Source: a virus | Reading direction: 5' to 3' (one strand) | DNA: 56,386 nucleotides | IMG/VR virus record: IMGVR_UViG_3300025117_000077 | Location: 1-56,386 of that record | Part shown: positions 8,082-56,386 of the stretch, in pieces | Numbering within the stretch: the stretch's first letter is position 1 | Layout: each line of letters starts with the position of its first letter | Program-made: the position numbers and the translations under genes | The notes under the pieces: model-generated | Database searches by the model: none | What the model was told of the DNA's origin: nothing | Seen by the model: the letters and a program-made list of their open reading frames with translations, nothing else

Positions 8082-8092
8082 AGGATTAGACA

Positions 8093-8293: not shown

Positions 8294-8302
8294 GCAACGC
8301 TA

Positions 8303-8662
8303 ATGGCTGAAGATAAAACCATTGAATCCATACCATGGAGATATTGCGAACTTAGGGCGGAGACTTGCGACAGAAAAATCTCCGACCTTGATAAATTATT
8401 GGTTCAAAGGGTGGACTCGGTTAAAACCGCTGTTGATATGGGGTTTACTTCAATGGAGAAAGCGTTGATCCTGGCAAGTAGACAGCAGGAAAAGCACGAT
8501 GCGGGAGTAAACGAATTTCAAAAAAGAATGGATAAATTAGAGGCGACCTTCGCCACAAAATCAGAAGTAGCAAAGGATCTTAAAGCCTCAAACCGAGTGC
8601 TTTTAATTGGGGCCGTGTTGATTGTAGTTTTAACGATTGTTTTGAACTATTTAAAATTATAA
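8303..8662 (+). CDS. Coiled-coil protein with C-terminal membrane anchor
   Basis: The 119-residue product has a long helical, heptad-rich region (residues 20-95, including MDKLEATFATKSEVAKDLK) and a C-terminal hydrophobic helix (residues 97-116). A tail-anchored coiled coil in a lysis region could regulate a holin or join inner and outer membranes. No lipobox or signal anchor at the N-terminus argues against a classic spanin. The function is unknown. Confidence 0.6.
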   Translation: MAEDKTIESIPWRYCELRAETCDRKISDLDKLLVQRVDSVKTAVDMGFTSMEKALILASRQQEKHDAGVNEFQKRMDKLEATFATKSEVAKDLKASNRVLLIGAVLIVVLTIVLNYLKL

Positions 8663-30994: not shown

Positions 30995-32803
30995 ATGCCT
31001 AAAGGCCAATACGCCAGATACCGGCCTCAACAGCCTGCACAGCCTCAGCAGGAGTGGATACCGGATAGTACGCCTGCGGACGTTGAAGCCCTGCTTGGGA
31101 AGATGAACGAGCTTCAGCTTCAGACGTTCAAGGTGGTTATTGGCAGGAATGTAGTCGGGAAGATAACCGACAAGGATGTGTTCAAGTATGAGAAGGCTTT
31201 GAGCCTGGTGGACCCTGGAAGATGGGCCATGCAGAATCACCTTTACCTGCCTTCTTCCGGGAACTACTTTACCTTCGAGGGGCATGAATATCTGAGGGAT
31301 ATCTACGACACCCATGCGCCTTATATCGTCTTGCTTAAGGGAGCGCAGTTGGGCCTTTCAGAGTGGTGCGTCATAACCTCACTTCATGACTGCGCTTATC
31401 GTTTAAAGTCGGGGCTGATTTACTATTTTCCTACATACACCCACGTTTTGAAGTTCTCCAAGTCGAGGTTTAACCCAATAATCAAGGCCAATCCTATCCT
31501 GCAAAGTATGGTTAGAAACACTAACTCTGCGGATATCAAACAGGTTGGGAATTGCACCCTTCATTTCTTTGGTCTACGGGGGCCGATGGGGGCCAAGACA
31601 ACCCCGGCGGATAAGCTGGTGTTCGATGAAGAGGACGAGGTTGAAGATCCTACCTATGTGGATATGGCCCATAAGCGTATGGCTCATAGCGAGTTCCAGG
31701 AGGAAGTTCACCTGAGTACCCCTACCATCCCTGACTTCGGGGTGGATGATAAGTTCCAGCTTACAGACCAGAGATACCGGATGATGTACTGTGAGGGATG
31801 CCGGAGCTACACCTGCATGGAAGAAGAGTTCCCGGAATGTTTGATTATGACACCGGAGGGGGCCAAGCGGGTCTGTGTCAAGTGCCAGAGGGAGTTGAAC
31901 CTTTCCCACCCTAAGAATCAGTATGTAGCTAAATATCCGGGCAAGGAACTGAATGGGCGGCCTGCCGTGGGGTACTGTGTCAGCCAGCTTCACTCTATTT
32001 ATGTCCCTATGGACGAGATATGGAGTGAGTACCATACGACCAAGTACCCGCAGGACTTCTGGAACCAACGGCTTGCCAGGGCTTTCATAGAGGTTCAGAA
32101 CCGGATGGAAGTGGCCCACGTTATAGCCATGTGCGGTTCTCACGGGATGGAACAGAGATCGGACGTGCCTACCTGTATCGGGGTGGATATAGGGCCTAAG
32201 ACGCACCATGTGGTTGTGGGAAGGAAGGAGTACGGGGGATCGGTTAAGATAATCTATCTCGGAGAAACCAAGCCGAATAACAATGCTAACCCTAATGAAG
32301 CCTGGGACGACTTGAAGCAGATTATCAAGAAGTTTGACGGGTACTTGGTTTTGGATGGTCTGCCGGAACCTAAGAAGGCTTTGAACTTCACCAAGGACCA
32401 CCCTTACCGGGCCTGGGCCTGTTTCTACTCCAACTCCCCTTCAACCGGGATGAGATGGGATGATGACCAAAAGAAGATAACCGTTTATCAGTCTATGGCT
32501 ATGGACGCCAGTCACCAGATACTACAGGACGGCAAGACGGTTCTACCGAGGAAATCAGACCTGATAACTGAATTTGCCAAGCATTGCCATAACGTAGCCC
32601 GGAAGAAGATAGAGGACCGGGAAACGGGAAGCGTTTATAATAAGTGGATCAAGACTGGCCCGGACCATTACCGGAAGGCATTTTCTTATATGTGCTTGGC
32701 TATGGAGAGGACACCGGAAAGCAAGTACAGCGGAAGGGATTATTCCTACCTGGATGGAACCAGCAGTTCGGCCAGGGGGGACTTAGCGGGGAGTTATGCG
32801 TAA
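30995..32803 (+). CDS. terL: Terminase large subunit (GpA-like)
   Basis: The 602-residue protein has the packaging ATPase motifs of the GpA-like terminases: a Walker-A-like LLKGAQLGLSEW (residues 113-124) and Walker B KLVFDEEDEVEDP (207-219). It also has a cysteine-rich insert (CEGCRSYTC, CVKCQRELN) and the nuclease domain with CIGVDIGPKTHHVVVG (Asp398) and a later LVLDGLPEP. It drives DNA into the prohead and cuts it. Nearby are the probable small subunit (28987) and the portal. Confidence 0.9.
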   Translation: MPKGQYARYRPQQPAQPQQEWIPDSTPADVEALLGKMNELQLQTFKVVIGRNVVGKITDKDVFKYEKALSLVDPGRWAMQNHLYLPSSGNYFTFEGHEYLRDIYDTHAPYIVLLKGAQLGLSEWCVITSLHDCAYRLKSGLIYYFPTYTHVLKFSKSRFNPIIKANPILQSMVRNTNSADIKQVGNCTLHFFGLRGPMGAKTTPADKLVFDEEDEVEDPTYVDMAHKRMAHSEFQEEVHLSTPTIPDFGVDDKFQLTDQRYRMMYCEGCRSYTCMEEEFPECLIMTPEGAKRVCVKCQRELNLSHPKNQYVAKYPGKELNGRPAVGYCVSQLHSIYVPMDEIWSEYHTTKYPQDFWNQRLARAFIEVQNRMEVAHVIAMCGSHGMEQRSDVPTCIGVDIGPKTHHVVVGRKEYGGSVKIIYLGETKPNNNANPNEAWDDLKQIIKKFDGYLVLDGLPEPKKALNFTKDHPYRAWACFYSNSPSTGMRWDDDQKKITVYQSMAMDASHQILQDGKTVLPRKSDLITEFAKHCHNVARKKIEDRETGSVYNKWIKTGPDHYRKAFSYMCLAMERTPESKYSGRDYSYLDGTSSSARGDLAGSYA

Positions 32804-33281: not shown

Positions 33282-33530
33282 ATGCCGTTAAATCAGAACC
33301 GCTGTAACACCTGCCGGAGAGGGGTAGCCGAGTTCGTGGGACATAACTACGATGTCAAAAAAGATAAGTGTGTTTCTGTCTACCGCTGTATCGAGTGCGG
33401 AGCCATACACCTGGAACCCTGGAGGTTTATCGGAAGCGGGTCTTTCGATATTGAGCATCCCAAAGCACAGAAGGGGATGTTGCCAACCGATGATTACATG
33501 AAAAGGAAATTTCACGGATGGACCCCTTAA
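33282..33530 (+). CDS. Zinc-ribbon protein before portal (82 residues)
   Basis: The product has RCNTCRRG and YRCIECGAIHLEPW, a four-cysteine ribbon. A GGAGGGATTGG site precedes the start. It overlaps the portal gene by 13 bp. A role in packaging or regulation is unknown. Confidence 0.6.
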   Translation: MPLNQNRCNTCRRGVAEFVGHNYDVKKDKCVSVYRCIECGAIHLEPWRFIGSGSFDIEHPKAQKGMLPTDDYMKRKFHGWTP

Positions 33531-35578
33531 CCGGAATAAATCTATCTTCGGCGGGAACGGGCGACCAGATTTTCGATGTTCCCCCCAAGACGGAACCAAA
33601 GACCAAGAAGGCCAAAACTCAGACTATCGACCTGAATGAAACCAGGGACTTGATTCTGGCCTGTCAACAGGAAGCGGAAGAAATTTACCGTGAAGTGCGT
33701 AATACCTGGAACGATTGTTGGGATGCCTACCGGATGTACCAGGACTTCTCTAAGAAGCAGGACTGGCAGTCAAAGGTTTATGTTCCCGAGCTAAACCCGG
33801 CTATCAAGAAAGCGACTTCCATGATTCGCCGGATCATCATTCAGGCCGGGGAGTATTTCGATATCCATGATCCTCTCAACACCAATATCAACGACAGAAG
33901 CGTTCCTGGGCAGAAAGCGGCGCTTAAATACTTTTTGGATAGTATAAAGTTCGACACCAAATTGATGGAGGGGGTTGAATCCGGATTTACCTTTGGAACC
34001 GGAGTTCTCAAGCTCTGGTGGGAACCGCAGGAGAAGTGCCGGATAGAGGCTAAACAGGCGGTCAACTGGACGAACATCTTTCAACCAACCACAGAAACTA
34101 CTTTTGAAGAAGTGAAATGGATGTCGTCCGGTCTGGCCGCCAGGGTAGTTGATCCCCGGCAGATTTATTTCGACCCGGAACACAGCTATATCGTGGAAGA
34201 ATCTATGGCCAGCTTGCCGGACATAGTGGCCTTATCCAAGATTAAAATGCCGGACGGCTCCTGGTATTATGACCCCAAGCAGGTTGAAAAGTTAAAAAAC
34301 ACCGATTACTCGGAGGACCCCAAGGAAGTTGAACGGCTGGAGAAATTAAAGCTCTACACCGGGAAGAATGAGTTTAAGCGTCGGGTTCACCTTTACGAAT
34401 ATTGGGGGCCTGTCTATAACCGCAAGGGCGAAGTTCTAAAAAAGAATGCCCGTGTCGTTCTGGCCAACAAGCAGTATATCCTCAACACCGGGAACCTTGA
34501 GAACCCCATGCGGTTCTATGGGCCTCTCTACGGGAAACCGCCTTACATCATCTTCTCCCCAGTAGACTTCCTGTTCCGTCTTGAGGGGCAATCATTGATC
34601 GAAGGTGCTATCAGCCTCCAAAAAGCCATTGTCAACATCACCAACATGAGCCTCGATGGTTTGCTCTGGAAATTGATTAAGCTGTTTGAGGTCAACCCGG
34701 ACAGACTGAGAAACCCTGATGTCTTGACCAAGCTACGCCCTGGTAGTCCTATCCTGGTCAATGGAGACGGTAAGGCCATTAATGAAGTCCAAATAAGTGA
34801 TGTCCCCCGCGGAGCAATGGCTGAGACGGAGATTCTTAGACGGGCCTTGCAGAACTCTGACATGGTAACTGACTTCTCGTTAGCCCTGGAAACCAAGAAA
34901 ACAACGGCGACCGAGTACGAAGGGGCCAACAAGCAGACCGACAGTATGTTTGAGAGCATAGGCCGGAATCTGGAAGAGGGGCTTATCGAACCTTCAATTG
35001 AAATGTCACGGCAACTGATTATCCAGTTTTGGGATGATTTCAGAGATCCGGCCTTGCAGAAAATGGCTATGCAGTTCGGCCTTCCCTTTGCCGCACAGAC
35101 CAGGGAGGAACGTATTGCTTTCATGCTAAAGACCTCATGGGTGACTTCCAGGGGCATTTCCTCTTACTTCGAGAAGATGGCCAAGCTTAAGAAGATTATT
35201 GACTTCTTCGGGGTAGCGTCCAAAATACCGCCGCTTCTGGAACGGCTCAAGCTGAGGGAGTGGACAAACCGGATTATTGACTGTTTCAGCTTTGAACGAC
35301 CCCACGAACTGGTTGTCGATGAGCAGGAAGAACAGCAGATACAGGCCAACAATCAGGCTGAGAAGCAGGCCAAGATGGACAACCTCAATATGCAGAAAGA
35401 GGCTTTCGATATGAAGAAGATGGAAGCCCAGGCCAAGACCCAACAATTACAGGGCCAGTTGCCTCCCCCGCAGGGGATGCCGCCTGGTGGTAATGGGGGC
35501 GGGGGGAGAGCCGGGATACCTCCCGAAGCTATTCTTGCTGCTCTTGCCGCACAGAGCCAGGGGAGGACGCTTCAGTAA
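33518..35578 (+). CDS. Portal protein
   Basis: The 686-residue product fits a podovirus-type portal. It has a polar N-terminus and a long helical body with DWQSKVYVPELNPAIKKATSMIRRII, then EGVESGFTFGTGVLKLWWEP, VVDPRQIYFDPEHSY, FSPVDFLFRLEGQSLIEGAI. Its C-terminal coiled coil is rich in Q and E (EQQIQANNQAEKQAK) and ends in a proline/glycine stretch. The portal ring is the gate for DNA and the seat of the tail. Its place between terminase and capsid gene is standard. Confidence 0.85.
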   Translation: MDPLTGINLSSAGTGDQIFDVPPKTEPKTKKAKTQTIDLNETRDLILACQQEAEEIYREVRNTWNDCWDAYRMYQDFSKKQDWQSKVYVPELNPAIKKATSMIRRIIIQAGEYFDIHDPLNTNINDRSVPGQKAALKYFLDSIKFDTKLMEGVESGFTFGTGVLKLWWEPQEKCRIEAKQAVNWTNIFQPTTETTFEEVKWMSSGLAARVVDPRQIYFDPEHSYIVEESMASLPDIVALSKIKMPDGSWYYDPKQVEKLKNTDYSEDPKEVERLEKLKLYTGKNEFKRRVHLYEYWGPVYNRKGEVLKKNARVVLANKQYILNTGNLENPMRFYGPLYGKPPYIIFSPVDFLFRLEGQSLIEGAISLQKAIVNITNMSLDGLLWKLIKLFEVNPDRLRNPDVLTKLRPGSPILVNGDGKAINEVQISDVPRGAMAETEILRRALQNSDMVTDFSLALETKKTTATEYEGANKQTDSMFESIGRNLEEGLIEPSIEMSRQLIIQFWDDFRDPALQKMAMQFGLPFAAQTREERIAFMLKTSWVTSRGISSYFEKMAKLKKIIDFFGVASKIPPLLERLKLREWTNRIIDCFSFERPHELVVDEQEEQQIQANNQAEKQAKMDNLNMQKEAFDMKKMEAQAKTQQLQGQLPPPQGMPPGGNGGGGRAGIPPEAILAALAAQSQGRTLQ

Positions 35579-37126: not shown

Positions 37127-38047
37127 ATGTCTGAACAACTGTGGGTAACTTCATCACTTGGCGGGTATGCTGCCGCCCCTATCCTCTCCAAAGAGGTTCG
37201 GGTAGCCGCACAGCCGTTAATGCGATTCATGCAGTTTTGCACCACCAAGGAAGACTTCGGGAAGGGTAAAGGCGACACCATCCTTTTCGATAAAATCGGA
37301 AACGTTGCAACCGGCGGAGGTACTTTGGTTGAAACCACCACCATGCCCTCCACTTATTTTACAATGGCCCAGGGTACTTTGACCCTTACAGAATACGGGA
37401 ATAGTATTCCTGTGACGGGAAAACTGTTAGCCCTGGCCGATATAGACATGAAAACTCCGGTTATCAAGGCCCTGAAGAACGATGCGGCCAAGGTTATGGA
37501 AACCGCAGTGGAAGCCGAAATGAATAAATGTAAGATTCGGTATGTCGGTTCCACCGCTTCAACCGGGAACTTCACCACCAATGGTACGGCTACCGAAAGC
37601 TGTAGCGTGGTTTTGGATGCCTATCATCTCCGCACCATAATTGACTATCTCATGGGAACCCTTTACGCTCCCCCGGCTGATGGCGAGTTCTATTTCGGTA
37701 TTCTTACCGTCGCCGCCGCCCGGAGCCTGTACGAGTCCCTGGAAGGGGTCTGGCAGTATACCCAATATCCCGTAAACGGCGAGATGGGCAAGAATTATAA
37801 GTGCCGTCTGGTACGTGATGCCTATGCGATGGACAACTCAATCGGGGTCAGCAACGTGAGTGGTGAGGCTTATTTCTTCGGGGATGAAGCCGTAGCCGAA
37901 GGTGTTGCCATTCCGATTGAAATCCGGACCGAACCCATCAAGGACTTTGGCCGGTCCAATGCCTTTGCCTGGTACGCTATCGAAGGCTTTGAGCTTATAT
38001 GGGTCGGAGATCCCGATAATCGTATATGCAAATGGGACTCAGCTTAG
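37127..38047 (+). CDS. Major capsid protein (N4-gp56 family)
   Basis: The 306-residue protein matches N4-gp56-type capsid proteins: GKGDTILFDKIGN, GGTLVETTTMPSTYF, AQGTLTLTEYGNSIPVTGKL, then DAAKVMETAVEAEMN and a TVAAARSLYESLEG segment. It has the HK97-like fold of this family and builds the head shell. CCAGGAGGTAAAAA is its ribosome site. An HNH gene is inserted just after it. Confidence 0.9.
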   Translation: MSEQLWVTSSLGGYAAAPILSKEVRVAAQPLMRFMQFCTTKEDFGKGKGDTILFDKIGNVATGGGTLVETTTMPSTYFTMAQGTLTLTEYGNSIPVTGKLLALADIDMKTPVIKALKNDAAKVMETAVEAEMNKCKIRYVGSTASTGNFTTNGTATESCSVVLDAYHLRTIIDYLMGTLYAPPADGEFYFGILTVAAARSLYESLEGVWQYTQYPVNGEMGKNYKCRLVRDAYAMDNSIGVSNVSGEAYFFGDEAVAEGVAIPIEIRTEPIKDFGRSNAFAWYAIEGFELIWVGDPDNRICKWDSA

Positions 38048-38069
38048 TGATATTATTAGGAAAATAGAC

Positions 38070-38705
38070 ATGGACAAAACTTGGAAATTTCCTATTTATG
38101 ATGATAGCGGCACTTTAAAGCCTTATCTCGAAGTAGTGGAATGCAAGATTTGTGGTGTTAAATTTCCTGATAAAAAATGTCATAGGCGAACCTATTGTTC
38201 ATCGGAGTGCCAGCATGAGGACCAAAAAAGCAAAATGAATGCTGTTTGTGTAAATTGTGGAGAAATTTATTCTTATGAAAAATCTTCACGGTGGGGTTTG
38301 TTTTGCTCCAATAAATGTCATCATGAATGGAGACGTAAGAGAGAACTGGTACAATGTCTTTATTGTGGGAAGGAATTTATTGATAAGGTTAGTTCTCACC
38401 GTAAGTTCTGTTCCCTTAAGTGTTTTAAGGCACATCATGTTCTTGAAAATCATCATTGGTGGAAGGGCGGGGTGTTTGTTAAAAAGTATATATCGGTGCG
38501 GAAGCCCTACCATTCAAGATCGAGAGACGGCTATGTCTATGAGCATCTTTTAGTGATGGAGGAAAAGTTAGGACGGCCAGTAAAATTGGGCGAGATAGTC
38601 CATCATATAAATGGTGATCCTCTGGACAACCGAAGTGAAAATTTAATGTTAATCAATAACCAAGCCGATCATGCCTATTATCACAGGACTGGTCGGTTTA
38701 GATAA
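38070..38705 (+). CDS. HNH homing-type endonuclease with repeated zinc fingers
   Basis: The start at 38070 follows AGGA, giving 211 residues; an upstream in-frame extension would lie wholly inside the capsid gene. It holds three zinc-finger-like blocks (CKICGVKFP with YCSSEC, CVNCGEIY with FCSNKC, CLYCGKEF with FCSLKC). The nuclease core is YEHLLVMEEKLGRPVKLGE, IVHHINGDPLDNRSENLMLI. It is a freestanding homing-type nuclease. Lying between the capsid and another structural gene, it is a likely insertion. Confidence 0.8.
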   Translation: MDKTWKFPIYDDSGTLKPYLEVVECKICGVKFPDKKCHRRTYCSSECQHEDQKSKMNAVCVNCGEIYSYEKSSRWGLFCSNKCHHEWRRKRELVQCLYCGKEFIDKVSSHRKFCSLKCFKAHHVLENHHWWKGGVFVKKYISVRKPYHSRSRDGYVYEHLLVMEEKLGRPVKLGEIVHHINGDPLDNRSENLMLINNQADHAYYHRTGRFR

Positions 38706-38726: not shown

Positions 38727-39218
38727 ATGTCTAAATATTCTGACGAAAAATATGGTGTTGTTGAACGCCATTGGTTCGGATTAACCAAGAAGTTCGGAGG
38801 TGATGCCGCCAGTGGTTTCACTTTCGGCACAACGGATGCGACGAGCGTGAATCAGGTAACTCGTTTTTATCCGAAAGGCCCTATCCGAATGTTAAAATTC
38901 GGGTACATAACCCTTGGGACTGTTTCTGGTGGTGGAACCGGAATGGATGTTATCCCCTTACGGTTAAGGGTAAACGGTAGCAATGAGTCTTCTACCATTA
39001 ACATTCCTACCGCCGCCATCAATTATGCTATTGGGTCCACGGAAACCTTCACCAATCCGGTTGTTGATGCCGGTTCGTACATCGACATCATTACCGGAAC
39101 CCCCCAAACTGCCGATGGAACTGCCGCTAATGCGGCCACCTCTTCGGGGACCGTTTCGTTTTTCTTGGATTATGTGCGTGAGTACGCAAGCGGTTGGGAC
39201 CGGGAAGATTACAGCTAA
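38727..39218 (+). CDS. Probable virion (head decoration or connector) protein
   Basis: The 163-residue product is beta-rich, with SGFTFGTTDATSVNQVTRFYPKG and VIPLRLRVNGSNESSTINIP. Without the HNH insert it would follow the capsid gene directly. A head-decoration or head-completion role is the best guess. AGGAGGTAAGCTAAG is its ribosome site. Confidence 0.6.
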   Translation: MSKYSDEKYGVVERHWFGLTKKFGGDAASGFTFGTTDATSVNQVTRFYPKGPIRMLKFGYITLGTVSGGGTGMDVIPLRLRVNGSNESSTINIPTAAINYAIGSTETFTNPVVDAGSYIDIITGTPQTADGTAANAATSSGTVSFFLDYVREYASGWDREDYS

Positions 39219-39228
39219 CCTTTAACCG

Positions 39229-39262
39229 GGTATGGTGGGGGGACACCGCCTCTCACCATACC
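39229..39262 (+). terminator. Hairpin after head genes (weak terminator)
   Basis: GGTATGGTG (39229-39237) pairs with CACCATACC (39254-39262), extended by wobbles to about 12 pairs. A weak T-run (TAATCTTT) follows. It lies between head genes and the glycosyltransferase cassette, and could reduce transcription of the cassette. Confidence 0.55.
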
Positions 39263-39295: not shown

Positions 39296-40351
39296 ATGAA
39301 AATAGTGATGGTAAGCAACCACAACTGCATAAGAGTCCATAAGGAGTCATTGCCTATAATGGACTTAGGGAATGAGGTTCACTTGATCGCCAAAAAGCAG
39401 GTGGGTTTTTCTGAATTTTATAAAACATTTATTCATTATTCAGACATAGGCCAATGTATCGAAGGGATAAAACTTCATCCTGATGCCGATATTTTCCATT
39501 GCCACAATGAACCGTCTTGGTTTGTTTCCGCAGTTAAAGAGGTATTCCCTAATAAGCCGGTTGTCCTTGATGTTCACGATACGTTTTTAACCCGGTCAAC
39601 AAGTGAAGAAGCAGATGAAGCTATGTCTAAAGGATTGCCTCACGTTAGAGTTACTACCGAGGAACGCAATAATTTTCAATTAGCAGACGCATTAGTATTC
39701 GTTTCCGATGCAGTCAGGGACGCAACGGTTGAGGAATTTGATTTAAAGCAAAAAAAAATAGTTCTTCCTTCTTATGTCCCGGCTACGCTGTTCCAGTACC
39801 ACACAAAAGAATGGATGGGTGGATTGGTCTACGAAGGACGGGTTACTTTGCCAGAGGAAAACCAGGGATTAAACCTTAATACCGGGGCATACTATTGTGA
39901 TTATCAGCAGGTAGCCGGGGCCGCCAAAGAAATAGGTATCGACTTTCATGTCTATGCTGGCAGGGAAGACGAGGCTTTCAAGAAAGCCTATTCGGAAATT
40001 TCTTTTATCCATCCGGGATATGATTTTAGAAATCTTTTGCGCCAGATAAGCAGACACGATTGGGGGTTGGTTGGAAACTTAATTAACAGCCCACAATGGA
40101 ACATGACACTTCCCAATAAATTATTTGATTACATGGCTTCTGGTATTCCTTCGGTTTGTATAAACGCATCCTCTTCGTCGGAAGTAGTTGAGGGCCGCAA
40201 AATAGGTATAACCGTGGCATCCTTACCTGAATTGGCAGAAAGGTGGTCCGAACACAGAGAATGCAGAAATAATCTTTGGAAGGTACGCAAAGGATTAAGC
40301 ATGGAAGCCAATATAGGAAGTCTGGTTGAATTATATAAGGGGCTTTTATGA
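39296..40351 (+). CDS. GT-B glycosyltransferase (GT4-like)
   Basis: The 351-residue product has a Rossmann-type start (MKIVMVSNHNCIRVHKE), a HCHNEPSWFVSAVKE segment, and the GT4-type acceptor/donor region with VLDVHDTF and LPNKLFDYMASGIPSVC. It would transfer a sugar from a nucleotide sugar to an unknown acceptor. It is the first gene of the seven-gene cassette and overlaps the next by 4 bp (ATGA). GAGGGGAGAGGGA is its ribosome site. Confidence 0.8.
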   Translation: MKIVMVSNHNCIRVHKESLPIMDLGNEVHLIAKKQVGFSEFYKTFIHYSDIGQCIEGIKLHPDADIFHCHNEPSWFVSAVKEVFPNKPVVLDVHDTFLTRSTSEEADEAMSKGLPHVRVTTEERNNFQLADALVFVSDAVRDATVEEFDLKQKKIVLPSYVPATLFQYHTKEWMGGLVYEGRVTLPEENQGLNLNTGAYYCDYQQVAGAAKEIGIDFHVYAGREDEAFKKAYSEISFIHPGYDFRNLLRQISRHDWGLVGNLINSPQWNMTLPNKLFDYMASGIPSVCINASSSSEVVEGRKIGITVASLPELAERWSEHRECRNNLWKVRKGLSMEANIGSLVELYKGLL

Positions 40352-40950
40352 GAGACAGCGAATCGGCCTATTGGGACTCTGAGGCTAAAATAAAACTTGA
40401 AAAAAGCAGAGATAATGTTTGGAAGAGGGCCGCAATAGCAAGCAGGATTTTTTCAATTCCCTGGCACAATGCAAGAGTTTTAGAAATAGGGGCAGGTCAG
40501 GCGGCCATTGCAGCCGCTTTAAAATTTATTTATCTTAATAATTTGAAGTATGTGGGAACTGATGTTTCAAAAATGTATTGCGACTACTGTAAAGAACGTC
40601 TCGGGATGAATATGATTCACACCGACATTCTTGCACTCCCCAAAATTGATGGGGGATTTACGAGGGTAATCGCCCTTGACAGCCTTGAACATATTAGACC
40701 TGAAGACAGGGAACAAGGCTACAAAAACATTGGGAACGTTATAGCCGAAGATGCCACGATGGTTATCAATATGCCGTTGAATGAATCGTATCATGATCCT
40801 CAGTTTGATTATATGTTTGGAGTAAATGACGTTGCCAGGTTATGTGAACTCGCAAAAATGGAGGTTGTCTCCTGGGAAACATATAATATTAATGCCCCAA
40901 GTGGAAAGGCTTTTTATGGGTGGATTGTATTGCAGAAAGGTCTTGGATGA
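40348..40950 (+). CDS. SAM-dependent methyltransferase
   Basis: The 200-residue protein has class I motifs: VLEIGAGQAAIA (residues 44-55), GTDVSKMYCDYC, and VIALDSLEHI. It would methylate a sugar, protein or small molecule made by the cassette. ATGA overlaps couple it to the genes on both sides, so it is translated with them. Confidence 0.75.
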   Translation: MRDSESAYWDSEAKIKLEKSRDNVWKRAAIASRIFSIPWHNARVLEIGAGQAAIAAALKFIYLNNLKYVGTDVSKMYCDYCKERLGMNMIHTDILALPKIDGGFTRVIALDSLEHIRPEDREQGYKNIGNVIAEDATMVINMPLNESYHDPQFDYMFGVNDVARLCELAKMEVVSWETYNINAPSGKAFYGWIVLQKGLG

Positions 40951-41924
40951 GAGCCCCAAACTTAGATGAAATTCTGATCGGCGCAAGTCCTAAACGGTAT
41001 ATTTGTGAAATACATCGGGAGTTATACGATCTTGTTGATAAGAGTGAATTAAACGGGGATAAAGAATCTTTCCTAAATCTGATTGCCGAAGCCTATTGGT
41101 CGGGGAAGCGGATGAGCGAACGGTTAAGCGATTTAAAGAAGGGATGGCAAAACGAAGAAGACTGGGGGGATAATTTAGACTACAACGAGGACTTGGTGCG
41201 AAGAGCCACCAGAATGAATCTACTTAGAAATGTAAAGTCGGTCAACATAGAAACCATTGATTATTGTAACAGGAAGTGCGATTGGTGTCCAAATAAGAAC
41301 AGGGAAACATCCCCCGAAAATTTAATGACCTGGGAAACCATTAGAAGGGTTATCAGGCAACTCTTAGAATATCAATACGCCGGGGACATTCATCTATTTC
41401 TTAACGGCGAACCATCCTTGGACGAGCGCATAATTAAAATAGTTAGTTTAGCAAAGACCTTCTTACCTAAAAACTATATTCGGATTGTAAGTAATGGGTC
41501 CGGCTTTGATTATGATAAGGTCAGCAATCTGTTTAAGGCGGGTCTTAATTCTTTGCACATTAATCACTATGACGGGCCGCTGTCCGACAAAGGTAAACTG
41601 AGAGATGAAGATTTTCCGGGAATGTCTCATTTTGGGATGAAGACCCTGTTGCCTACATTTTATAACAGGGCCGGGAAAGTTAATTATACACCAGAAAACA
41701 AAGCCAAAAGGTGTCTAAATTTTAACAACAAATTGGTTTTTAATTGGAAGGGGGACTTGATTCTTTGTTGTTCTGATTTTAATAGCGAGGTTGTTTTCGG
41801 AAACATTAACGAACAGCCGCTAAGTATTATTCTGGCTTCAAAAAAATACCGTGAATACTATTATGCGCACAGGGAGGGGAAGGCAAAAACTTTGCCTTTG
41901 TGTGAGAAATGCAACTTAATATGA
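40947..41924 (+). CDS. Radical SAM protein with SPASM-like C-terminus
   Basis: The start at 40947 overlaps the upstream stop as ATGA; the longer frame is less likely. The 325-residue protein has the radical-SAM cluster IDYCNRKCDWCPNKN (Cys107, Cys111, Cys114) and a GEPSLDE motif. The C-terminus has KAKRCLNFNNKLVFNWKGDLILCC, and then PLCEKC, as in SPASM domains that bind extra FeS clusters. Such enzymes modify peptides, sugars or other radical substrates. The substrate here is unknown. It is unusual in a phage structural region. Confidence 0.8.
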   Translation: MRAPNLDEILIGASPKRYICEIHRELYDLVDKSELNGDKESFLNLIAEAYWSGKRMSERLSDLKKGWQNEEDWGDNLDYNEDLVRRATRMNLLRNVKSVNIETIDYCNRKCDWCPNKNRETSPENLMTWETIRRVIRQLLEYQYAGDIHLFLNGEPSLDERIIKIVSLAKTFLPKNYIRIVSNGSGFDYDKVSNLFKAGLNSLHINHYDGPLSDKGKLRDEDFPGMSHFGMKTLLPTFYNRAGKVNYTPENKAKRCLNFNNKLVFNWKGDLILCCSDFNSEVVFGNINEQPLSIILASKKYREYYYAHREGKAKTLPLCEKCNLI

Positions 41925-41937
41925 GGGGAAGGGTAAA

Positions 41938-42915
41938 ATGAAAATATTAATTATTGATTATCCCTGGAACAAGACATGGCTCCCGCTTTATGCGAAGGCC
42001 ATTAACGAATTGGGTCATGAGGTTGCCGTGTGGGACGGAAAGGGTGAAGTTACTCTCCAACACATACCGGATGTTGTTTTATGCACCTGGGCTGACCGAG
42101 ATTTTACGGAGATGTTTCCGAACTCTCGCCATATTCTTATGATGAGGAGATTTGAATTTTATCATGCTCCCTGGATCAATTATAAATGGGACAAAGTATC
42201 GGCGTTGATTTGTTGTAACCCCTGGATTGCTAATCAGGTCAGGATGGGATTACCGGACCACAAGGATAAGATCCACTATATTCCTAACCCAATCTCTCCT
42301 TCCTCCTGGACCTACATGGATAGGGGGCACGGTAAAAAGATAGGCATGGTGGGGCGGATTCATTCGGTTAAAAATTATCCATTAGCCGCTCAAATTCTCA
42401 TGGCACTCCCCGACGATTATGAACTCCATATTGCCGGGGAAAGAAATGACTCCTGGATTGAAATTTATCTGCGGGAATTGAAATTAAAAAACTTATTCCT
42501 TCATGGGCCGATACAGCATAGCGACCTTGACAGGTGGTGGGAAGATAAAAACTATTGCCTGTCTACGGCCACCTCTGAGGGTGATCCCATGTTTGTATTA
42601 GAAGCTATGTCTAAAGGGATTAAACCAATTATTCATGAATGGCCGGGAGCCAAAGAAATGTATCCGGTAGGCTGGACCTTTGACAGTATTGAAAGGGCCA
42701 AAGAGATAATTTTGTCAAGCCAATATGATTCAAGACAATACAGAACTTTTATTGAGAAACACAGACCAGTAGTGCTTGCTGACAAAGTGGCTGATATAAC
42801 CTGTAACATTGGCATCCTGGGCGGCAGTGAACCCTCTAATCTGTCGCCATCCCAGGGGGGGCGGGTTCCCTTCCCTCCCCGCTCCCCCATTACTTTTCAA
42901 GAGGTAAGAGTATGA
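41938..42915 (+). CDS. GT-B glycosyltransferase (GT4-like), second
   Basis: The 325-residue product has a GT-B start (MKILIIDYPWNKTWLPLYAKAINELG), a KIGMVGRIHSVKNYPLAAQI segment (donor-binding start), and ATSEGDPMFVLEAMSKGIKPIIHEW (the E-x7-E-like end). The C-terminal 35 residues are a proline/serine-rich tail. GAGGGGAAGGG precedes the start. Different from the first transferase in sequence, so a different sugar or acceptor is likely. Confidence 0.8.
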   Translation: MKILIIDYPWNKTWLPLYAKAINELGHEVAVWDGKGEVTLQHIPDVVLCTWADRDFTEMFPNSRHILMMRRFEFYHAPWINYKWDKVSALICCNPWIANQVRMGLPDHKDKIHYIPNPISPSSWTYMDRGHGKKIGMVGRIHSVKNYPLAAQILMALPDDYELHIAGERNDSWIEIYLRELKLKNLFLHGPIQHSDLDRWWEDKNYCLSTATSEGDPMFVLEAMSKGIKPIIHEWPGAKEMYPVGWTFDSIERAKEIILSSQYDSRQYRTFIEKHRPVVLADKVADITCNIGILGGSEPSNLSPSQGGRVPFPPRSPITFQEVRV

Positions 42916-42943
42916 AAATAGATGCCACTATTTTGAGGTTGGA

Positions 42944-43537
42944 ATGATGCAGATAAACGACTTTTGGGAAGAAGAATGGAATAAGCGTATCCTGGGTGAT
43001 GGGACAGTTAAGTTCAATGTTGGCAAGGCGGAGAAGATATTGGGGAACCTAAAGGGTAGAGAATATTTTAAGCCACATAAAATTCTTGATATAGGTTGCG
43101 GCCCAGCGTTCCATGCCATAAGAATTTTACAAGATGACCCAACTTATAAAAACAGATGGTATGGAATTGATTTGGCGCAAAATGCCGTTCAGTTTTTTCA
43201 GGAACAAGGTCTTCAGGGAGAATGCGGGAGTATTTATAACTTTAACCCTAACGGCAATAAATTTGGCATATTCCTGTTGCTCGACACCCTTGAACATATA
43301 ATGGACAGAGATAGACTGGCAGGTAAGATAAAAGAATTAGCGGAACAAAAATATATCATTTTCGGGAACATCCCCCTTTATACGGACAAAGTAAACGGGG
43401 GGGCGGGCTTTGAGAATCCGATGGACATAGGTATTTTAAAAAAGTTTATGAAGGATGCCGGGATACCGGAATTTGACTACCTTGTTTATGGCATTTATGG
43501 TTGGCCATACATGATGTTTGAGGGAAAAGTTTTATGA
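42944..43537 (+). CDS. SAM-dependent methyltransferase, second
   Basis: The 197-residue protein has the SAM motif ILDIGCGPAFHAIRIL (near residues 46-61) and GIDLAQNAVQFFQEQ, then LLLDTLEHIMDRDRLA. It is a class I methyltransferase of the UbiE/methyltransf-11 type. It overlaps the next gene by 4 bp (ATGA). Its substrate is unknown. Confidence 0.75.
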   Translation: MMQINDFWEEEWNKRILGDGTVKFNVGKAEKILGNLKGREYFKPHKILDIGCGPAFHAIRILQDDPTYKNRWYGIDLAQNAVQFFQEQGLQGECGSIYNFNPNGNKFGIFLLLDTLEHIMDRDRLAGKIKELAEQKYIIFGNIPLYTDKVNGGAGFENPMDIGILKKFMKDAGIPEFDYLVYGIYGWPYMMFEGKVL

Positions 43538-44106
43538 CCTGGACAAATCCAAAAGGAGAATATGTTTCTGAGACAGCCAAGTGCCGTTTTAGGCTTATCC
43601 CCTACTGCCTTGGAGTAGGACTCGACATAGGTTGCGGGATAGATAAGATACGGGTTGAGGCCATTGGCATTGATATTGACGGAACAGGGGATTTAAACTT
43701 TGACGTTAATCGGGGCCTGGACATTTTAGCCGACGAATCATTTGACTATGTGTTTAGCTCCCATTGTCTTGAGGACTTGGAGTACCCCGAGATTTCCCTG
43801 AAGGACTGGTGGAGCAAGATCAAAGTCGGAGGTCACTTGGTGCTGTATCTCCCCCATAAGGACTTTTATCCGAATGTCGGTCAGGAAGGGTGCAACACCA
43901 AGCATAAACATGACTTACTGCCGGAGGACATTATAACGATGATGGATAAATTCGCCTGCTCCATCGTCCTTCATCAAAAGATATGCTTCGAGAAAGATGA
44001 GTATAGCTTTGAGTTTGTTTTTAAGAAGCTGTCTAATTTTAAGATAAGGGCCGAGTTTATCAACTATCAATCCAAAGCCATTAACTTTGATTGGAAAAGC
44101 GTATGA
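43534..44106 (+). CDS. SAM-dependent methyltransferase, third
   Basis: The 190-residue product has GLDIGCGIDKIRVEAIGIDIDG (from residue 29), FDYVFSSHCLEDLEYPE and GGHLVLYLPHKDFYPNVG, the pattern of class I methyltransferases in sugar and lipid pathways. It is coupled to 42944-43537 and to the next gene by 4-bp overlaps. The three methyltransferases are not close copies of each other. Confidence 0.75.
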   Translation: MTWTNPKGEYVSETAKCRFRLIPYCLGVGLDIGCGIDKIRVEAIGIDIDGTGDLNFDVNRGLDILADESFDYVFSSHCLEDLEYPEISLKDWWSKIKVGGHLVLYLPHKDFYPNVGQEGCNTKHKHDLLPEDIITMMDKFACSIVLHQKICFEKDEYSFEFVFKKLSNFKIRAEFINYQSKAINFDWKSV

Positions 44107-45209
44107 AGCGGGTCATGGTGCATAGGTACGGAGGTCACGGGGACCACATAATCGGCAGTCCTTTATTCAAGAGACTGAAACGGGATGGCTTTGAAACAAC
44201 CTTAAATACAACGTCCCGGGCCTTTGCAAGTATCAAGAACTCCCCCTATATCGACAGGGTTCTTTTGCAGGAAGACGACCTTATTCCAAGGAACAGGCTT
44301 GGCGATTATTGGGATGCCATAGGAGAAGGTTACGACAAGGTGGTTAATCTCTCTGAAACCCTTGAAGTTAAATTCTTGTTTCACCCCAGAACTCCAGAGT
44401 ATGCACTTCCGGTTGAGAAGCGGAGGGAACTATCGGGAGGGGCTAATTATTACGACTATGTTCTACAACACGCCGGTTATACCGATATTGAGGCTCCCGT
44501 AGGCGAGCTTTACCCGGATGAACTTGAGGTAGCCTTAATGAGTACCTTCAGGAAGAAATTCAAGGGTAAATTCCTCATTCTTTGGTGTCTGTCTGGGTCT
44601 GCTATGCACAAGGCATGGCTGAGGGCTGAAGAAACGGCCATTACCTTTCTGGCACGGCACAAGGACGTTATTATTATCACCATTGGGGATTACTTTACCA
44701 AGATGATCGACTTTGCTCAGTGGTCCCCTCCCGGCAGGGTATTAAGCCAGGTTGGAGAATGGGATGTACGGACCTCTATGCTTATGACCAACTATGTTGA
44801 CTTGGTTGTATCTCCTGAAACAAGCATCCTGAATGCCGCGGGGTGCTACGATACTCCAAAGATAGGGTTGTTGACCCATTCCAACAAGACGAACCTGACG
44901 AAGCATTTCAAGAACGACTACTCGCTCCAGGCCGAAACGGAATGCTCCCCATGCCACAGGATGATTTATATGGACAATTTCAAGACGGATTGTCCCTTGC
45001 TCGGTGGTGGTAAGGAGAAGATAGGTTTCGATACTTGTGCCTGTGCGGACGGCTTCTCGGTAGACAGGGTATTAAGGAACATGGAGAAAGTCTATCAGAT
45101 ATGGAAGTCCGGGCATAACACGGTTCAATTTACCAAGCCGGAGAAACCCATTGTTCTTTATGGGCCAGCCGGACAGAAGGTTTATCAGTCCAATGCGGTT
45201 TTGCAATAG
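44103..45209 (+). CDS. Glycosyltransferase, GT9-like
   Basis: Start chosen at 44103 by the ATGA overlap, giving 368 residues. The product begins MKRVMVHRYGGHGDHIIGSPLFKRLK, then NSPYIDRVLLQEDD, in the style of GT9 (heptosyltransferase-like) enzymes. It has VVSPETSILNAAGCYDTPKIGLLTHSN, the usual GT9 donor-side block, and ends with cysteine-containing DTCACADGF. GT9 enzymes add heptose or related sugars. It closes the cassette. Confidence 0.75.
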   Translation: MKRVMVHRYGGHGDHIIGSPLFKRLKRDGFETTLNTTSRAFASIKNSPYIDRVLLQEDDLIPRNRLGDYWDAIGEGYDKVVNLSETLEVKFLFHPRTPEYALPVEKRRELSGGANYYDYVLQHAGYTDIEAPVGELYPDELEVALMSTFRKKFKGKFLILWCLSGSAMHKAWLRAEETAITFLARHKDVIIITIGDYFTKMIDFAQWSPPGRVLSQVGEWDVRTSMLMTNYVDLVVSPETSILNAAGCYDTPKIGLLTHSNKTNLTKHFKNDYSLQAETECSPCHRMIYMDNFKTDCPLLGGGKEKIGFDTCACADGFSVDRVLRNMEKVYQIWKSGHNTVQFTKPEKPIVLYGPAGQKVYQSNAVLQ

Positions 45210-45760: not shown

Positions 45761-46420
45761 ATGGCAACAGTAGGAACCCTGAAAACAAGAGTCCTTTACG
45801 ACCTGAGTGATATCAGCCAAAACAACTATGTCGATGCGGAGATATGGATTCAGTTCAATAAGGGATTAAACTTCATAAGCAAAGAACTGGCTAAATTCGA
45901 TTCTAAGGTTGGGGTAGATAATACTACCCTGACCATAGCGGCAAGCGGAAACTCGGCCTCTCTCAACGCCGCATTCCTTAACTTTGTCGTTAATGAGAAA
46001 AGCGAACCCAAGGTGTTTAATGCTACCAATGATTACTCCCAAATGACTCAAGCCAAGGAATCGGATGTTGATTTATGGGAGCAGGAAGATTCAACAGATA
46101 CCGGAACCCCAAGCGAATTTTATCTCAGGGGCCTTACCTTCTATGTTCATCCTTGGGCCGATGTGGAAACGACCGTCAAGTACCACTACCATCCTATCAA
46201 GACCATAACCAATGATGCCTCTACGATGCCCTGGGACGGCTTATTTGACGAAGCTGTAGCTCATTTCGTAGTTCTTGCCCTTCGTACAAGGGATGAGCGT
46301 CTTAATATGGTGCAGATGGATTCTTTCCTGTTTGATGTTCTCAAGAGAGACGTTATGGATATCCTCTTCAAGCGGGAAGGTTTTACTATGAATTTCGCTG
46401 ATGGAGCCGGTTGGAATTAA
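45761..46420 (+). CDS. Putative head-tail adaptor protein
   Basis: The 219-residue product starts MATVGTLKTRVLYDLSDISQNNYVDAEIWIQFNKGLNFISKEL, which fits small head-completion or adaptor proteins that plug into the portal. It also has FYLRGLTFYVHPWADVETTVKYHYHP. It directly precedes the nozzle-like gene. Call rests on order and pattern. Confidence 0.6.
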   Translation: MATVGTLKTRVLYDLSDISQNNYVDAEIWIQFNKGLNFISKELAKFDSKVGVDNTTLTIAASGNSASLNAAFLNFVVNEKSEPKVFNATNDYSQMTQAKESDVDLWEQEDSTDTGTPSEFYLRGLTFYVHPWADVETTVKYHYHPIKTITNDASTMPWDGLFDEAVAHFVVLALRTRDERLNMVQMDSFLFDVLKRDVMDILFKREGFTMNFADGAGWN

Positions 46421-47935
46421 ATGAAGCCAATTAAGTTTAACATAAGAATGCCGAAGGACTGGCCACTGATTATATCTAAGCTGGATGGCGGGGTTAATTA
46501 TTCAGTCCCGGAAGATTCGATAAAAGACAGCGAACTCTCCGGGGCCTTGAATTATTTCTATGATCCCAACACCTACAGGCTTATGCACCGGCCTGGAGTT
46601 TCCCGGTATAGCGGAACTGTTTTGGCGGGATCAGGGACAGAACTTCAAATAAAGGGGAGCTTCTATTCCAGCATTCTGGATAAGGTTTTTATCGTTGCCA
46701 ACTCGGTCTTATATTACCTGGATTCAAGTAAAAATCCTCAGTCCATTGGAACCTTGAACGGGTCCGGATACCCATTCTTTCTCGACTTTAACGGCCAATG
46801 CCTTATTGCCAGCGGGGGAGTTTTGGAAACAACGGATGGTTTGCTTTTGGCCGATGTCTCCGGCGCTCCAATTTTATCCAAGATATTTACCAAGGATGGC
46901 CGGGTTTGGGGAACGGGGGATACTGCAAATCCACACAGAGTTTGGGGATCAGGGCCAGGGGATGAAACAGATTGGGATTCGGTCGGCGGGAATGCTGTTT
47001 ACTTTGACGTAGAACAAAATGTCGGGGACCGGGTGGTCAATGCCGATATTTATAAAAATAATGTCATAGTCTTTAAGGGGATTCAACAACGGGGCATTTT
47101 TGCCATTGTCGTTCCCCTGGGAGTTTATGCAGATGCCTATGTCCAGGAGATAAGCACCAAGAGTTCGGCCCTGAACATTCATTGTAGTATTGAAGAAGGG
47201 AACGACCTTCTGTTTCTTGATAATACCGGATTCAGGTCTTTGGTTGGAGTTCAACAATATGGTGATATCGAACAAGACCCGGTAGGCTATAAAATAAATT
47301 CTACACTTTTGCCTACTCTGGATAGCTCGTTCGCCTTTTTAGCCAGGAACCCTTACTATAATCAGGTTTTAATAAAATATGCTGATGTGCAGACCTGTTT
47401 TGTGTTTAATCCGACCAAGAAGTCATTCTTACCCATAGAGTTTACCAGTCTTAAACCCTATTCGGCCTGTTATATGGAGAACGACAAGACTTTCCTTATC
47501 GGTATGGATGATGGGTTTTTGTATAAGATGGAAACCTCTGTTTTTACGGATAACGGTGTAGCCGTTCCCGCCTTCTTTAAAACCAAGAAGTTTACCGGCA
47601 AAGTGGGGGGGAGTTTTCTTAAGGTTCTAAAGTCGGTCATTTTTGACTATGAGGGCTTAGCATCAGGGTCTGCCTCCCTGCAAGTCATTGTCAACGGTGG
47701 GGAGAAGACCGTTTCGCTTTCATCCATTACACCGGAGGCCGGTAGTGGTTTGCTCTTTGATGCAACCGGATACATTGATGCGGCCACAGGGCTTTTATAT
47801 GGAGAGAGTTTTTCGACTTCTTTTATCAATAAGTTTGTCAATTTTTATGACATTATCTTTTTGGTTTCCAATGACACGGGAGCGATAAGGTTTAATCGCT
47901 TGGAGGGACGATGTTCTACGTTGAAACGGAGATAG
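46421..47935 (+). CDS. Putative tail nozzle/tube protein (beta-propeller-like)
   Basis: The 504-residue product resembles podovirus nozzle proteins. Beta-rich repeats include SKLDGGVNYSVPEDSIKDSELSGALNYFYD, LDKVFIVANSVLYYLDSS, GKNV-type turns and FLIGMDDGFLYKM. A propeller-like fold with repeated YY/W and DG turns is likely. It follows the adaptor without a gap. It would close the tail channel. Confidence 0.65.
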   Translation: MKPIKFNIRMPKDWPLIISKLDGGVNYSVPEDSIKDSELSGALNYFYDPNTYRLMHRPGVSRYSGTVLAGSGTELQIKGSFYSSILDKVFIVANSVLYYLDSSKNPQSIGTLNGSGYPFFLDFNGQCLIASGGVLETTDGLLLADVSGAPILSKIFTKDGRVWGTGDTANPHRVWGSGPGDETDWDSVGGNAVYFDVEQNVGDRVVNADIYKNNVIVFKGIQQRGIFAIVVPLGVYADAYVQEISTKSSALNIHCSIEEGNDLLFLDNTGFRSLVGVQQYGDIEQDPVGYKINSTLLPTLDSSFAFLARNPYYNQVLIKYADVQTCFVFNPTKKSFLPIEFTSLKPYSACYMENDKTFLIGMDDGFLYKMETSVFTDNGVAVPAFFKTKKFTGKVGGSFLKVLKSVIFDYEGLASGSASLQVIVNGGEKTVSLSSITPEAGSGLLFDATGYIDAATGLLYGESFSTSFINKFVNFYDIIFLVSNDTGAIRFNRLEGRCSTLKRR

Positions 47936-55700: not shown

Positions 55701-56386
55701 TCTTAATAGGGCAAAGAAGGCCATGAATCTTGGTTTTGAGTTCGGATATGGTGATATGATTTTAAAGTACCCCAAAACTCCGGGAGCATTATTGGCCAGA
55801 GGGTTAGAGTATTCTCCGGCAGGGATACTTAAAGCTACCTATGAAGCCACAAAGCCTTTATTTACTGACAATAAGTTAGACAATAGGGCATTGTCACTTT
55901 CGGTAGGCAGGGCCATTTTCGGAACAATGGGATTATCGGCCTTGGGGTATTACTTTTTCGATCAAGGCATTATTACTGGACCAACGAATAAGGACAAAGA
56001 CGTTGCATCTGCTCAAAGAACAATGGGTACGCACCCTTATAAAGTAAATATTTCGGCCTTTAAAAGATGGGCTTTTTCGGGGGGAGATACAGACCAAGTT
56101 AAGCCACAAGAAGGGGACACTTATTATTCTTATGATTGGGCACAGCCGGTAGCGATGGCTATCGCTGGTGGTGCTAATATGGCCAAGGAATACGAAGAAA
56201 GAAAGGTTTTTACAAAAGCCTTCAGGGAGTCCATGAAGGGAGCTCCCCATATTATTTATCGTGGCATGGAATCAGCCCTTGAGACTCTTGTGGCCCAACC
56301 AGTTCTCCAGGGCCTATTGAAATTATCACAAGGCTATGGTGCGGAAGGTGTCGCCTCGAGCATTGTCAATATAGCGACTGAAGTCC
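52798..56386 (+). CDS. Polyvalent-type giant virion protein (ART-like + LPD38-like), N-terminal part
   Basis: Starts right after the previous stop; the full product is 1396 residues (continues at 5-732). Residues 4-24 hold two VTLEPI-x-EQ repeats. Residues 352-447 resemble the ADP-ribosyltransferase domain of phage polyvalent proteins: PQVFFHATDTP (His359), then TGKYDGVIVEG and IKWGIASDPSSLKNI. Residues 800-1150 are helical, with TRNPLGNELFYRVERM and FLERTMGATLKSFDYAAYNRAYW. Such proteins are usually carried in the head and injected with DNA, where toxic domains act on host defences. Catalysis here is not shown. Confidence 0.8.
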   Translation, partial: MAQVTLEPIEEQTEQMVTLEPIQEQPPGGAVNRLKQYYEYLHTPTEGPKSVKDFLTRVVPASLEKTAYGLIEFPYQVVKSVTDPIIHEKGVKAGATKLGKNLYENVEGLARFSGEQIGVYGWDKLKERWSTDPIGSVLGLAPLIKGVVSYAKTKGITPKEAVNEIVLDKTFSNFERLKEEQVKAVQNKLAGGQRPLGKLVTLERMAESEGKIRGKVGGEDYAKNIFTEENLQRTEDLVKAQKGFDERLKPEEQTLDQLHEQAYGEKVAPEELAKQQTEFDTRMAGKEPEPLIMDKIREAAVKEEALAKGEISGFYPAEERAKAAVGGTEGIREKVLPVEELIEKPVATQEQSNPQVFFHATDTPITEWKPGQKVNFSERPMTEDFGNHVYKMEVELKRPAPDMDAYQTDLAQKTGKYDGVIVEGTDYQGKPIKWGIASDPSSLKNIEYQGPKAGEVGVEESRTIKNIISDINTAMGEKGAIGNIELSPEQIAARKRLLSDFDKIKANAANVGKNIDDYLSGLGVDEKVISSMKGVVKEQPVKEGEGIVINKGDYVGESGEKVRSFAVTAATSDLVAPEVKSGIIEEIKPGGKGVYEPITLKDAQAEAVKKITQDTEKAVRFLRSSRNPGAVHTAVGEELIKKFQSEGNHERATEVALDLSKRLTKAGQEIVAARLMGKLSPEGILITANRAIEEFNNKSLRKAGVKLVPGWVKQLELGPDTAKNLHDLAKAIKEAKDEKVKIELSQELQNALNAITPSTIGQKISTLQIIAQLFNPKTIVTRNPLGNELFYRVERMNKYPTALVDWAASNLGGGDRYITFRTGGAGRGKYWEGWLTGWKAGFEGVNPQGLQTQYDLGRKPAFRNKPYEIKLDDGTWTYKMPNRAERVASFLERTMGATLKSFDYAAYNRAYWNTIGEMATLRSMNEVGKVDPKLVQQYIKTFDENVNKTAMEYGKYVTFQDNNIISVGLNRAKKAMNLGFEFGYGDMILKYPKTPGALLARGLEYSPAGILKATYEATKPLFTDNKLDNRALSLSVGRAIFGTMGLSALGYYFFDQGIITGPTNKDKDVASAQRTMGTHPYKVNISAFKRWAFSGGDTDQVKPQEGDTYYSYDWAQPVAMAIAGGANMAKEYEERKVFTKAFRESMKGAPHIIYRGMESALETLVAQPVLQGLLKLSQGYGAEGVASSIVNIATEV
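56261..56386. repeat. Terminal direct repeat, right copy (circular closure)
   Basis: Identical to 5-130. See the left copy. Base 56260 is C while base 4 is T, so the match ends there. Confidence 0.95.

Follow-up and report, generated by a model that had tools for sequence, protein, structure and literature searches.

A candidate virion-glycosylation island with a BtrN-like radical SAM enzyme next to the capsid genes of an uncultured phage family

The virus record IMGVR_UViG_3300025117_000077 from IMG/VR (56,386 nucleotides, the whole stretch being referred to here as the window) carries between its capsid and tail genes, at positions 39296-45209, a cassette of seven genes for three glycosyltransferases (GT1, GT2, GT3), three methyltransferases (MT1, MT2, MT3) and a radical S-adenosylmethionine (SAM) enzyme (rSAM). 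On balance, we favour the view that this cassette is a swappable, late-expressed virion-glycosylation island. Its target would be a capsid-associated protein, most likely the small protein g163 encoded directly upstream of it, which GT1 would decorate. Among the evidence for this view is that g163 and GT1 have one common history, unlike that of the major capsid protein (MCP) and the portal, and that both genes keep their place behind the MCP gene in relatives.

Linkage and common history of g163 and GT1

A scan with a GT1 alignment yielded 44 viral loci with a GT1 relative. The same genes were found at the same place in relatives (GT1 39-70% and rSAM 50-62% identical), and this recurrence indicates that the gene set did not come together by chance. 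In the closest long relative, the 56.9-kb record L003, identity was 70% for GT1, 62% for rSAM, 60% for GT2, 57% for both MT3 and GT3 and 55% for MT1; MT2 had no match in L003. A first-pass annotation of the window had called for a survey of co-occurrence with the N4-gp56-type capsid gene. MCP and GT1 occurred together in 30 non-redundant loci. GT1 was invariably (30/30) found 0.3-1.9 kb downstream of MCP and in the same orientation, and g163 lay between the two in 29 of the loci, in 27 by open reading frame (ORF) call and in L039 and L045 by six-frame search. The six-frame search found no g163 in five MCP relatives without GT1 (L065, L066, L068, L071, L025). Where examined, such relatives have a different protein of about 140 amino acids (aa) in the g163 place; in L065, L066 and L068 its gene is adjoined by those of further sugar enzymes. 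In L060, which has another capsid family (phrog_334), the MCP gene is followed by genes for a protein of about 150 aa, a GT1 relative and a radical-SAM protein.

Maximum-likelihood trees were built for 21 loci, with smaller sets for portal, GT2 and GT3. The g163 and GT1 trees had 10/18 splits in common and zero supported conflicts, whereas the MCP tree shared only 4/18 splits with each of them and showed 4-6 supported conflicts. In the smaller sets, portal and MCP agreed in 9/10 splits and g163 and GT1 in 7/10, and GT3 tracked the portal/MCP history. The distance correlation was 0.77 for g163-GT1, 0.46 for GT1-MCP and 0.27 for g163-MCP. Since in most relatives MCP and g163 are nearer to each other than g163 and GT1, a breakpoint before g163 is not explained by proximity alone. 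We read these results as grouping g163 functionally with the glycosylation enzymes, among which it would most simply be the acceptor. The g163-GT1 pair thus shows both genetic linkage and joint inheritance of an enzyme gene with that of a structural protein, the structural status of g163 being deduced from its position.

The candidate acceptor and the hairpin behind its gene

The g163 gene (38727..39218, + strand) encodes a beta-sandwich protein of about 160 aa, and its AlphaFold2 model is all-beta, with a predicted local distance difference test score (pLDDT) of 81 and a predicted template modelling score of 0.76. We propose that g163 is a capsid decoration protein and glycan acceptor. Its Ser+Thr content of 19.5% was the highest among the families compared, which is suggestive at most. 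A role of g163 in glycan binding is also conceivable. Where the first-pass annotation had stated that no substrate is visible, position and the history shared with GT1 now point to g163 as a candidate.

A GC-rich hairpin with a 9-bp perfect stem (GGTATGGTG/CACCATACC; z -5.2) separates the capsid module from the cassette at 39229..39262 (+ strand). Hairpins with z <= -3 were present in 14 of the 19 called g163-GT1 gaps vs. 20/89 other gaps. Their stem sequences vary among loci and their position is constant; in some loci a T-run comes after the hairpin, a feature of intrinsic terminators. The hairpin is likely an attenuator or an RNA-processing site, and its conservation 3' of g163 suggests that the capsid and enzyme blocks are probably expressed at different levels.

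Layout and enzymes of the cassette

The seven genes follow each other in the order GT1, MT1, rSAM, GT2, MT2, MT3, GT3, and all their reading frames are open. The enzyme families named in the first-pass annotation were recovered by Pfam, apart from that of GT3, which has a partial profile match to a GT9 structure. After alignment with L003, two starts were moved, that of rSAM to 40947 and that of GT3 to 44103, in place of the longest ORFs; each moved start overlaps the preceding stop by ATGA. Such 4-bp overlaps were found at 4/6 junctions, in line with the earlier description of mostly ATGA-joined genes, the exceptions being rSAM/GT2 (gap of 13 nt) and GT2/MT2 (gap of 28 nt). The earlier assumption of one translated unit in the virion operon is qualified by the hairpin, which sets the cassette apart from the capsid genes. 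A pseudogene reading was ruled out, as the frames are open and the rSAM cysteines, the EX7E motif and the GT1 motifs are kept in diverged relatives.

The window has several glycosyltransferases together with methyltransferases inside a structural operon, as expected of a phage virion-glycosylation cassette. No transmembrane segment was found in the seven cassette proteins (maximum 19-residue hydropathy 1.36), unlike in O-antigen conversion cassettes, and by the same hydropathy analysis none of the seven corresponds to the membrane flippase or membrane-anchored glycosyltransferase of gtrABC serotype conversion. No nucleotide-sugar synthesis gene was seen within the cassette, so the window would rely on host nucleotide sugars.

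All cassette genes are on the + strand. GT1 (39296..40351) is a GT4-like glycosyltransferase of the GT-B type, with PF13439 above cut-off and invariant HNEP and D-H-D motifs; in its C-terminal half, the profile weakly matches glucosyltransferase 4w6q and the Gtf3-like 3qkw/3rhz. GT2 (41938..42915) is a GT4 glycosyltransferase with PF00534 above cut-off and an EX7E motif (E214-E222) visible in the alignment, and its profile matches lipopolysaccharide (LPS) 1,6-galactosyltransferase (E 1.4e-8) and also O-antigen WbnH. For GT3 (44103..45209) there was no Pfam match; a 21-member profile matches the GT9 structure 3tov over positions 5-87 only (E 4e-6), so that the protein is called GT9-like, and it has a C-terminal CxPCH...C...C cluster whose cysteines (C281, C284, C297, C314) are invariant. 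The methyltransferases are of class I: MT1 (40348..40950; PF13649, E 2e-10) is a SAM methyltransferase 55/49/32% identical to its counterparts in L003/L010/L011, MT2 (42944..43537) matches PF13649, and MT3 (43534..44106) matches PF08241 weakly.

The radical SAM protein

The rSAM gene (40947..41924) encodes an N-terminal helical domain of about 90 aa, a radical SAM core and one auxiliary-cluster domain (PF04055, PF13186). In a single-sequence phmmer search BtrN was its only PDB match (E 1.6e-18, query 80-324), and the rSAM profile matched BtrN at E 4e-35, far better than any other structure, with YydG as a weaker match. The CxxxCxxC motif corresponds to C107/C111/C114, as the first-pass annotation had it; the numbering is correct given the start ATG at 40947, as in L003, and the three cysteines are invariant across six homologues. 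The auxiliary cysteines C256, C274, C319 and C322 align with the BtrN cluster ligands, C275 lying beside C274, so that conservation extends to all seven cluster cysteines. An NR(A/G)G motif is retained in L003 and L039. Its Arg241 stands opposite a residue which we take to be Arg152 of BtrN, this number and those of the BtrN cluster cysteines being counted along the alignment.

The same first reading had labelled the enzyme SPASM-type, which has to be revised. In place of the seven cysteines and two clusters of SPASM we found four auxiliary cysteines plus C275 and no cysteine further C-terminal; with one four-Cys auxiliary cluster and the protein ending 3 residues past C322, the domain is twitch-type, as in BtrN. 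The auxiliary [4Fe-4S] cluster of BtrN has four-Cys ligation, and the reaction of BtrN is a two-electron oxidation of an alcohol group in an aminocyclitol (PMC9012708). We predict from the alignment that rSAM is a BtrN-like dehydrogenase of a sugar-like alcohol.

Residues 1-90 of rSAM form a separate small helical domain without a Pfam family. This domain was found in seven other loci, alone in L011, L030, L042, L044, L052 and L054 and joined to GT2 in L010, and the radical-SAM protein of L039 is without it. The slot between MT1 and GT2 holds the rSAM gene or its N-terminal domain in the window, L003, L010, L011, L039 and L044. AlphaFold2, given a 6-row alignment, modelled rSAM poorly (pLDDT 61), and the model was kept out of the fold search. 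A viperin-like (pVip) identity was rejected, since the PADLOC match is weak (E 5.5e-7) and covers the core only, whereas BtrN spans the full length. A scan of genome contigs with the radical-SAM alignment gave a single remote match, in a Clostridium metagenome-assembled genome, which does not assign a host.

Islands of the relatives and genome setting

In the relatives, the islands contain genes for a UDP-sugar dehydrogenase, a Gfo/Idh/MocA oxidoreductase, a hexapeptide acyltransferase and a PIG-L deacetylase, and also for a cupin, an NAD epimerase, GT2-family and GT17 transferases and sulfotransferases. Judged by family, these accessory genes are a sugar-tailoring repertoire. In L066 (2734-4377) an MptE-like domain is fused to a methyltransferase beside the capsid gene, and radical SAM, sulfotransferase and GT3 genes come next. 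L058 (1-11002) has, upstream of tail-like genes, many GT-like, methyltransferase-like and PIG-L-like ORFs, with functions mostly judged by eye, together with a single radical-SAM gene and a single GT1 relative. In the L018 genome (G002, a 41.9-kb record), the GT3 gene at 40356-41351 contains a single in-frame TGA. This gene is separated from GT1 and GT2 by the contig ends, an arrangement that points to a circular map. One candidate (H21/L073, MT835743.1, deposited as 'Bacteriophage sp.') was set aside as a bacterial chromosome fragment with ABC transporter and V-type ATPase-like genes. GT1, GT3 and g163 had no match in 50,697 cultured phage records, and thus no cultured model was found.

The window has a 126-bp perfect direct repeat at its termini (5-130 and 56261-56386) and is therefore probably complete, with a genome size of about 56.3 kb. 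Its late gene order is terminase (30995-32803), portal (33518-35578), a scaffold-like ORF, MCP, an HNH ORF, g163, the cassette and tail genes. The MCP (37127..38047, + strand) is an HK97-fold, N4-gp56-like protein with a match to the major head protein family phrog_1357 (E 1.5e-9) and a weak one to PF05065, and is syntenic in 30 relatives. The island is closed downstream by the tail/adaptor genes g219 and g504 (45761..47935, + strand), syntenic in L003; the positional equivalent of this region in L027 (7351-8058) matches SU10_adaptor. The HNH ORF (37902-38705) overlaps the 3' end of MCP in the window, and group I introns were seen within the MCP gene of L003 (7058-7355), L027 (790-1075), L040 (5219-5517) and L052 (6443-6700). 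At 6423-6459 (+ strand) of the window, inside an ORF region, an abiF RNA (RF03085) scored above the gathering cut-off; no Abi_2 protein was found by Pfam or PADLOC among the neighbouring ORFs tested. Scans for promoter and terminator consensus sequences did not rise above chance.

Proposed pathway and its alternatives

For the sugar chemistry, acceptor, step order and biological role of the island we propose the following. GT1 would start a short glycan on g163, and GT2 and GT3 would lengthen it or attach a second one. rSAM would convert one sugar hydroxyl to a ketone through H-abstraction by the 5'-deoxyadenosyl radical and transfer of an electron to the auxiliary [4Fe-4S] cluster, and MT1-MT3 may methylate hydroxyl, amino or carboxyl groups as caps. 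The hairpin 3' of g163 would hold enzyme levels under those of the structural proteins. In relatives, the outer decoration would be altered by sulfate, N-acyl, uronate or deacetylated sugars, a pattern to be expected of a decoration that masks or varies the particle surface. More tentatively, and with a good deal less confidence, we suggest that a BtrN-type keto-sugar (or another radical-derived sugar) is part of a methylated g163 glycan and that g163 and its cognate glycosyltransferase are swapped as one cassette. To our knowledge, no radical-enzyme-derived glycan has been described earlier on a virus particle; this one, if true, would be the first, and the system would be a portable one for protein glycosylation.

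Several results weigh against virion glycosylation through g163. In approximately unbiased tests, a swap of any two trees was rejected, g163/GT1 included and in both directions, the likelihood cost for g163/GT1 (68 and 96) being about one third of that with MCP (212 and 318). After removal of divergent g163 sequences, the advantage of g163-GT1 over GT1-MCP dropped to 74% of bootstraps. The co-inheritance could come from a shared recombination block, with no enzyme-substrate pair. L003 has kept GT1 and, in the region 8037-8349, retains only a 29-residue C-terminal piece of g163, so GT1 may have another target there. The fold search with g163 gave weak, mixed beta-sandwich matches (TM-score <= 0.43 among the PDB matches listed, about 0.5 in BFVD), and its role as a decoration protein is therefore argued from position. 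Finally, GT4/GT9-like enzymes and the LPS galactosyltransferase match are also compatible with LPS chemistry.

The last point leads to the main rival, that late in infection the enzymes remodel the LPS or capsule of the host, which would exclude superinfection or keep progeny from sticking to debris. We consider it unlikely, yet the most serious of the alternatives: besides the GT2 profile matches to LPS 1,6-galactosyltransferase and WbnH and the heptosyltransferase-like GT9 character of GT3, the accessory genes of the islands resemble O-antigen pathways, and glycosyltransferases near radical-SAM genes in SAR11 myophages were assigned to host LPS (PMC7029224). At the same time, the cassette has no transmembrane flippase, polymerase or GtrA/GtrB-like protein, its linkage to the capsid gene and g163 is strict, and it sits in the late structural operon and not in an early or lysogenic moron. 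The first-pass annotation had placed a methylated, unusual sugar either on virion proteins or on the cell surface; the comparative evidence favours the virion protein and makes the cell surface the less favoured target.

Strongly variable gene content among loci, the lack of MT2 in L003 and the mobility indicated by the window HNH ORF and the group I introns in relatives' MCP would fit a cargo hot spot, in which mixed morons between MCP and tail genes form no single pathway and hosts select genes for different ends. We hold this to be improbable, as GT1 is there throughout, GT2 and GT3 occur in most loci, and nearly all family-assigned cargo is sugar-related. Hypermodification of phage DNA bases, glycosylated or methylated against restriction, appears very unlikely. 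A passage of PMC12619734 citing Pyle 2024 holds that phage glycosyltransferases can glycosylate DNA, and radical SAM and methyltransferase proteins are compatible with exotic base chemistry. However, no nucleotide hydroxymethylase or thymidylate-synthase-like family was among PHROG matches <3e-8 of 40 proteins from the early region, the cassette is placed in the capsid module with GT1 co-evolving with g163, and the nearest glycosyltransferase relatives act on sugar or protein glycans. We give even less credence to rSAM as a maturase, of the kind acting on ribosomally synthesised and post-translationally modified peptides, for a virion polypeptide side chain, with the glycosyltransferases acting on the same residue. 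SPASM/twitch proteins frequently act on peptides, the N-terminal domain could bind one, and YydG is a weaker profile match; but the sole single-sequence structural match, over core and auxiliary domain, is the small-molecule dehydrogenase BtrN, there is one auxiliary cluster and not two, a precursor-like small ORF is not consistently present, and the N-terminal domain is dispensable (missing in L039, stand-alone elsewhere).

The relatives point to a large family, uncultured to date and represented by at least 30 distinct contigs, whose glycan islands are linked to the capsid gene and differ in decoration chemistry (methyl, sulfate, N-acyl, uronate, radical oxidation); g163-GT1 is available as a candidate acceptor-enzyme pair. 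If virion glycosylation is the right reading, the island would represent a general means for phages to vary the particle surface, and protein glycosyltransferases as well as a sugar-oxidising radical enzyme might be obtained from it.

Comparison with known systems

Virion glycosylation has been demonstrated in a few mycobacteriophages. Gtf3-type glucosyltransferases (4w6q, 3qkw, 3rhz), of which Gtf3 acts on a protein-bound glycan, match GT1 weakly and are too distant for transfer of function. BtrN (2-deoxy-scyllo-inosamine dehydrogenase of butirosin biosynthesis, PDB 4M7T) resembles rSAM over the full length of the radical SAM and twitch parts, in the cysteines and in NR(A/G)G. The two proteins are distant in sequence, however, with a score of only 70 bits for the alignment over the full length, and rSAM has the extra N-terminal domain of about 90 aa and neighbours that are glycosyltransferases, not aminocyclitol synthesis genes. 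Clusters with a 'BtrN protein' in Campylobacter phages (CP20, WX1) likewise have a phage-borne BtrN-like radical SAM protein, 26-27% identical, but their neighbours are amidinotransferase, aminotransferase and other radical-SAM genes, with no capsid-side glycosyltransferases. In WX1 (L072, 1252-8258), the BtrN-like protein, an amidinotransferase, an aminotransferase and further radical-SAM genes look like a guanidino-aminocyclitol pathway.

A variable host-recognition region of SAR11 myophages encodes glycosyltransferases, UDP-glucose 6-dehydrogenase and radical-SAM proteins (PMC7029224). Glycosyltransferase and radical-SAM genes occur together there as in the window; those regions are linked to tail fibres, whereas the window island is linked to MCP-g163. 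The virion operon of Corndog, a cluster O mycobacteriophage, encodes an O-methyltransferase, two glycosyltransferases and a GlcNAc-transferase (gp35-gp38), which mass spectrometry detects in infected cells and not among virion proteins (PMC4351075). Passages of PMC11600133 and PMC12619734 citing Freeman 2023 describe glycans on the capsid and tail-tube proteins of Corndog-type phages. As in the window, a methyltransferase and several glycosyltransferases lie inside the virion operon, but the four Corndog genes stand between portal and protease and are without a radical-SAM gene, while the window island follows MCP-g163. The rarity first ascribed to the cassette therefore holds for the BtrN-like radical enzyme, which is unusual, and not for the combination of glycosyltransferases and methyltransferases in a phage structural operon, known from Corndog (PMC4351075). 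By gene content and position, and not by chemistry, the window island can be claimed to belong with the Corndog-type cassettes, to which it would add the BtrN-like enzyme, the g163-GT1 pairing and the breadth of the family.

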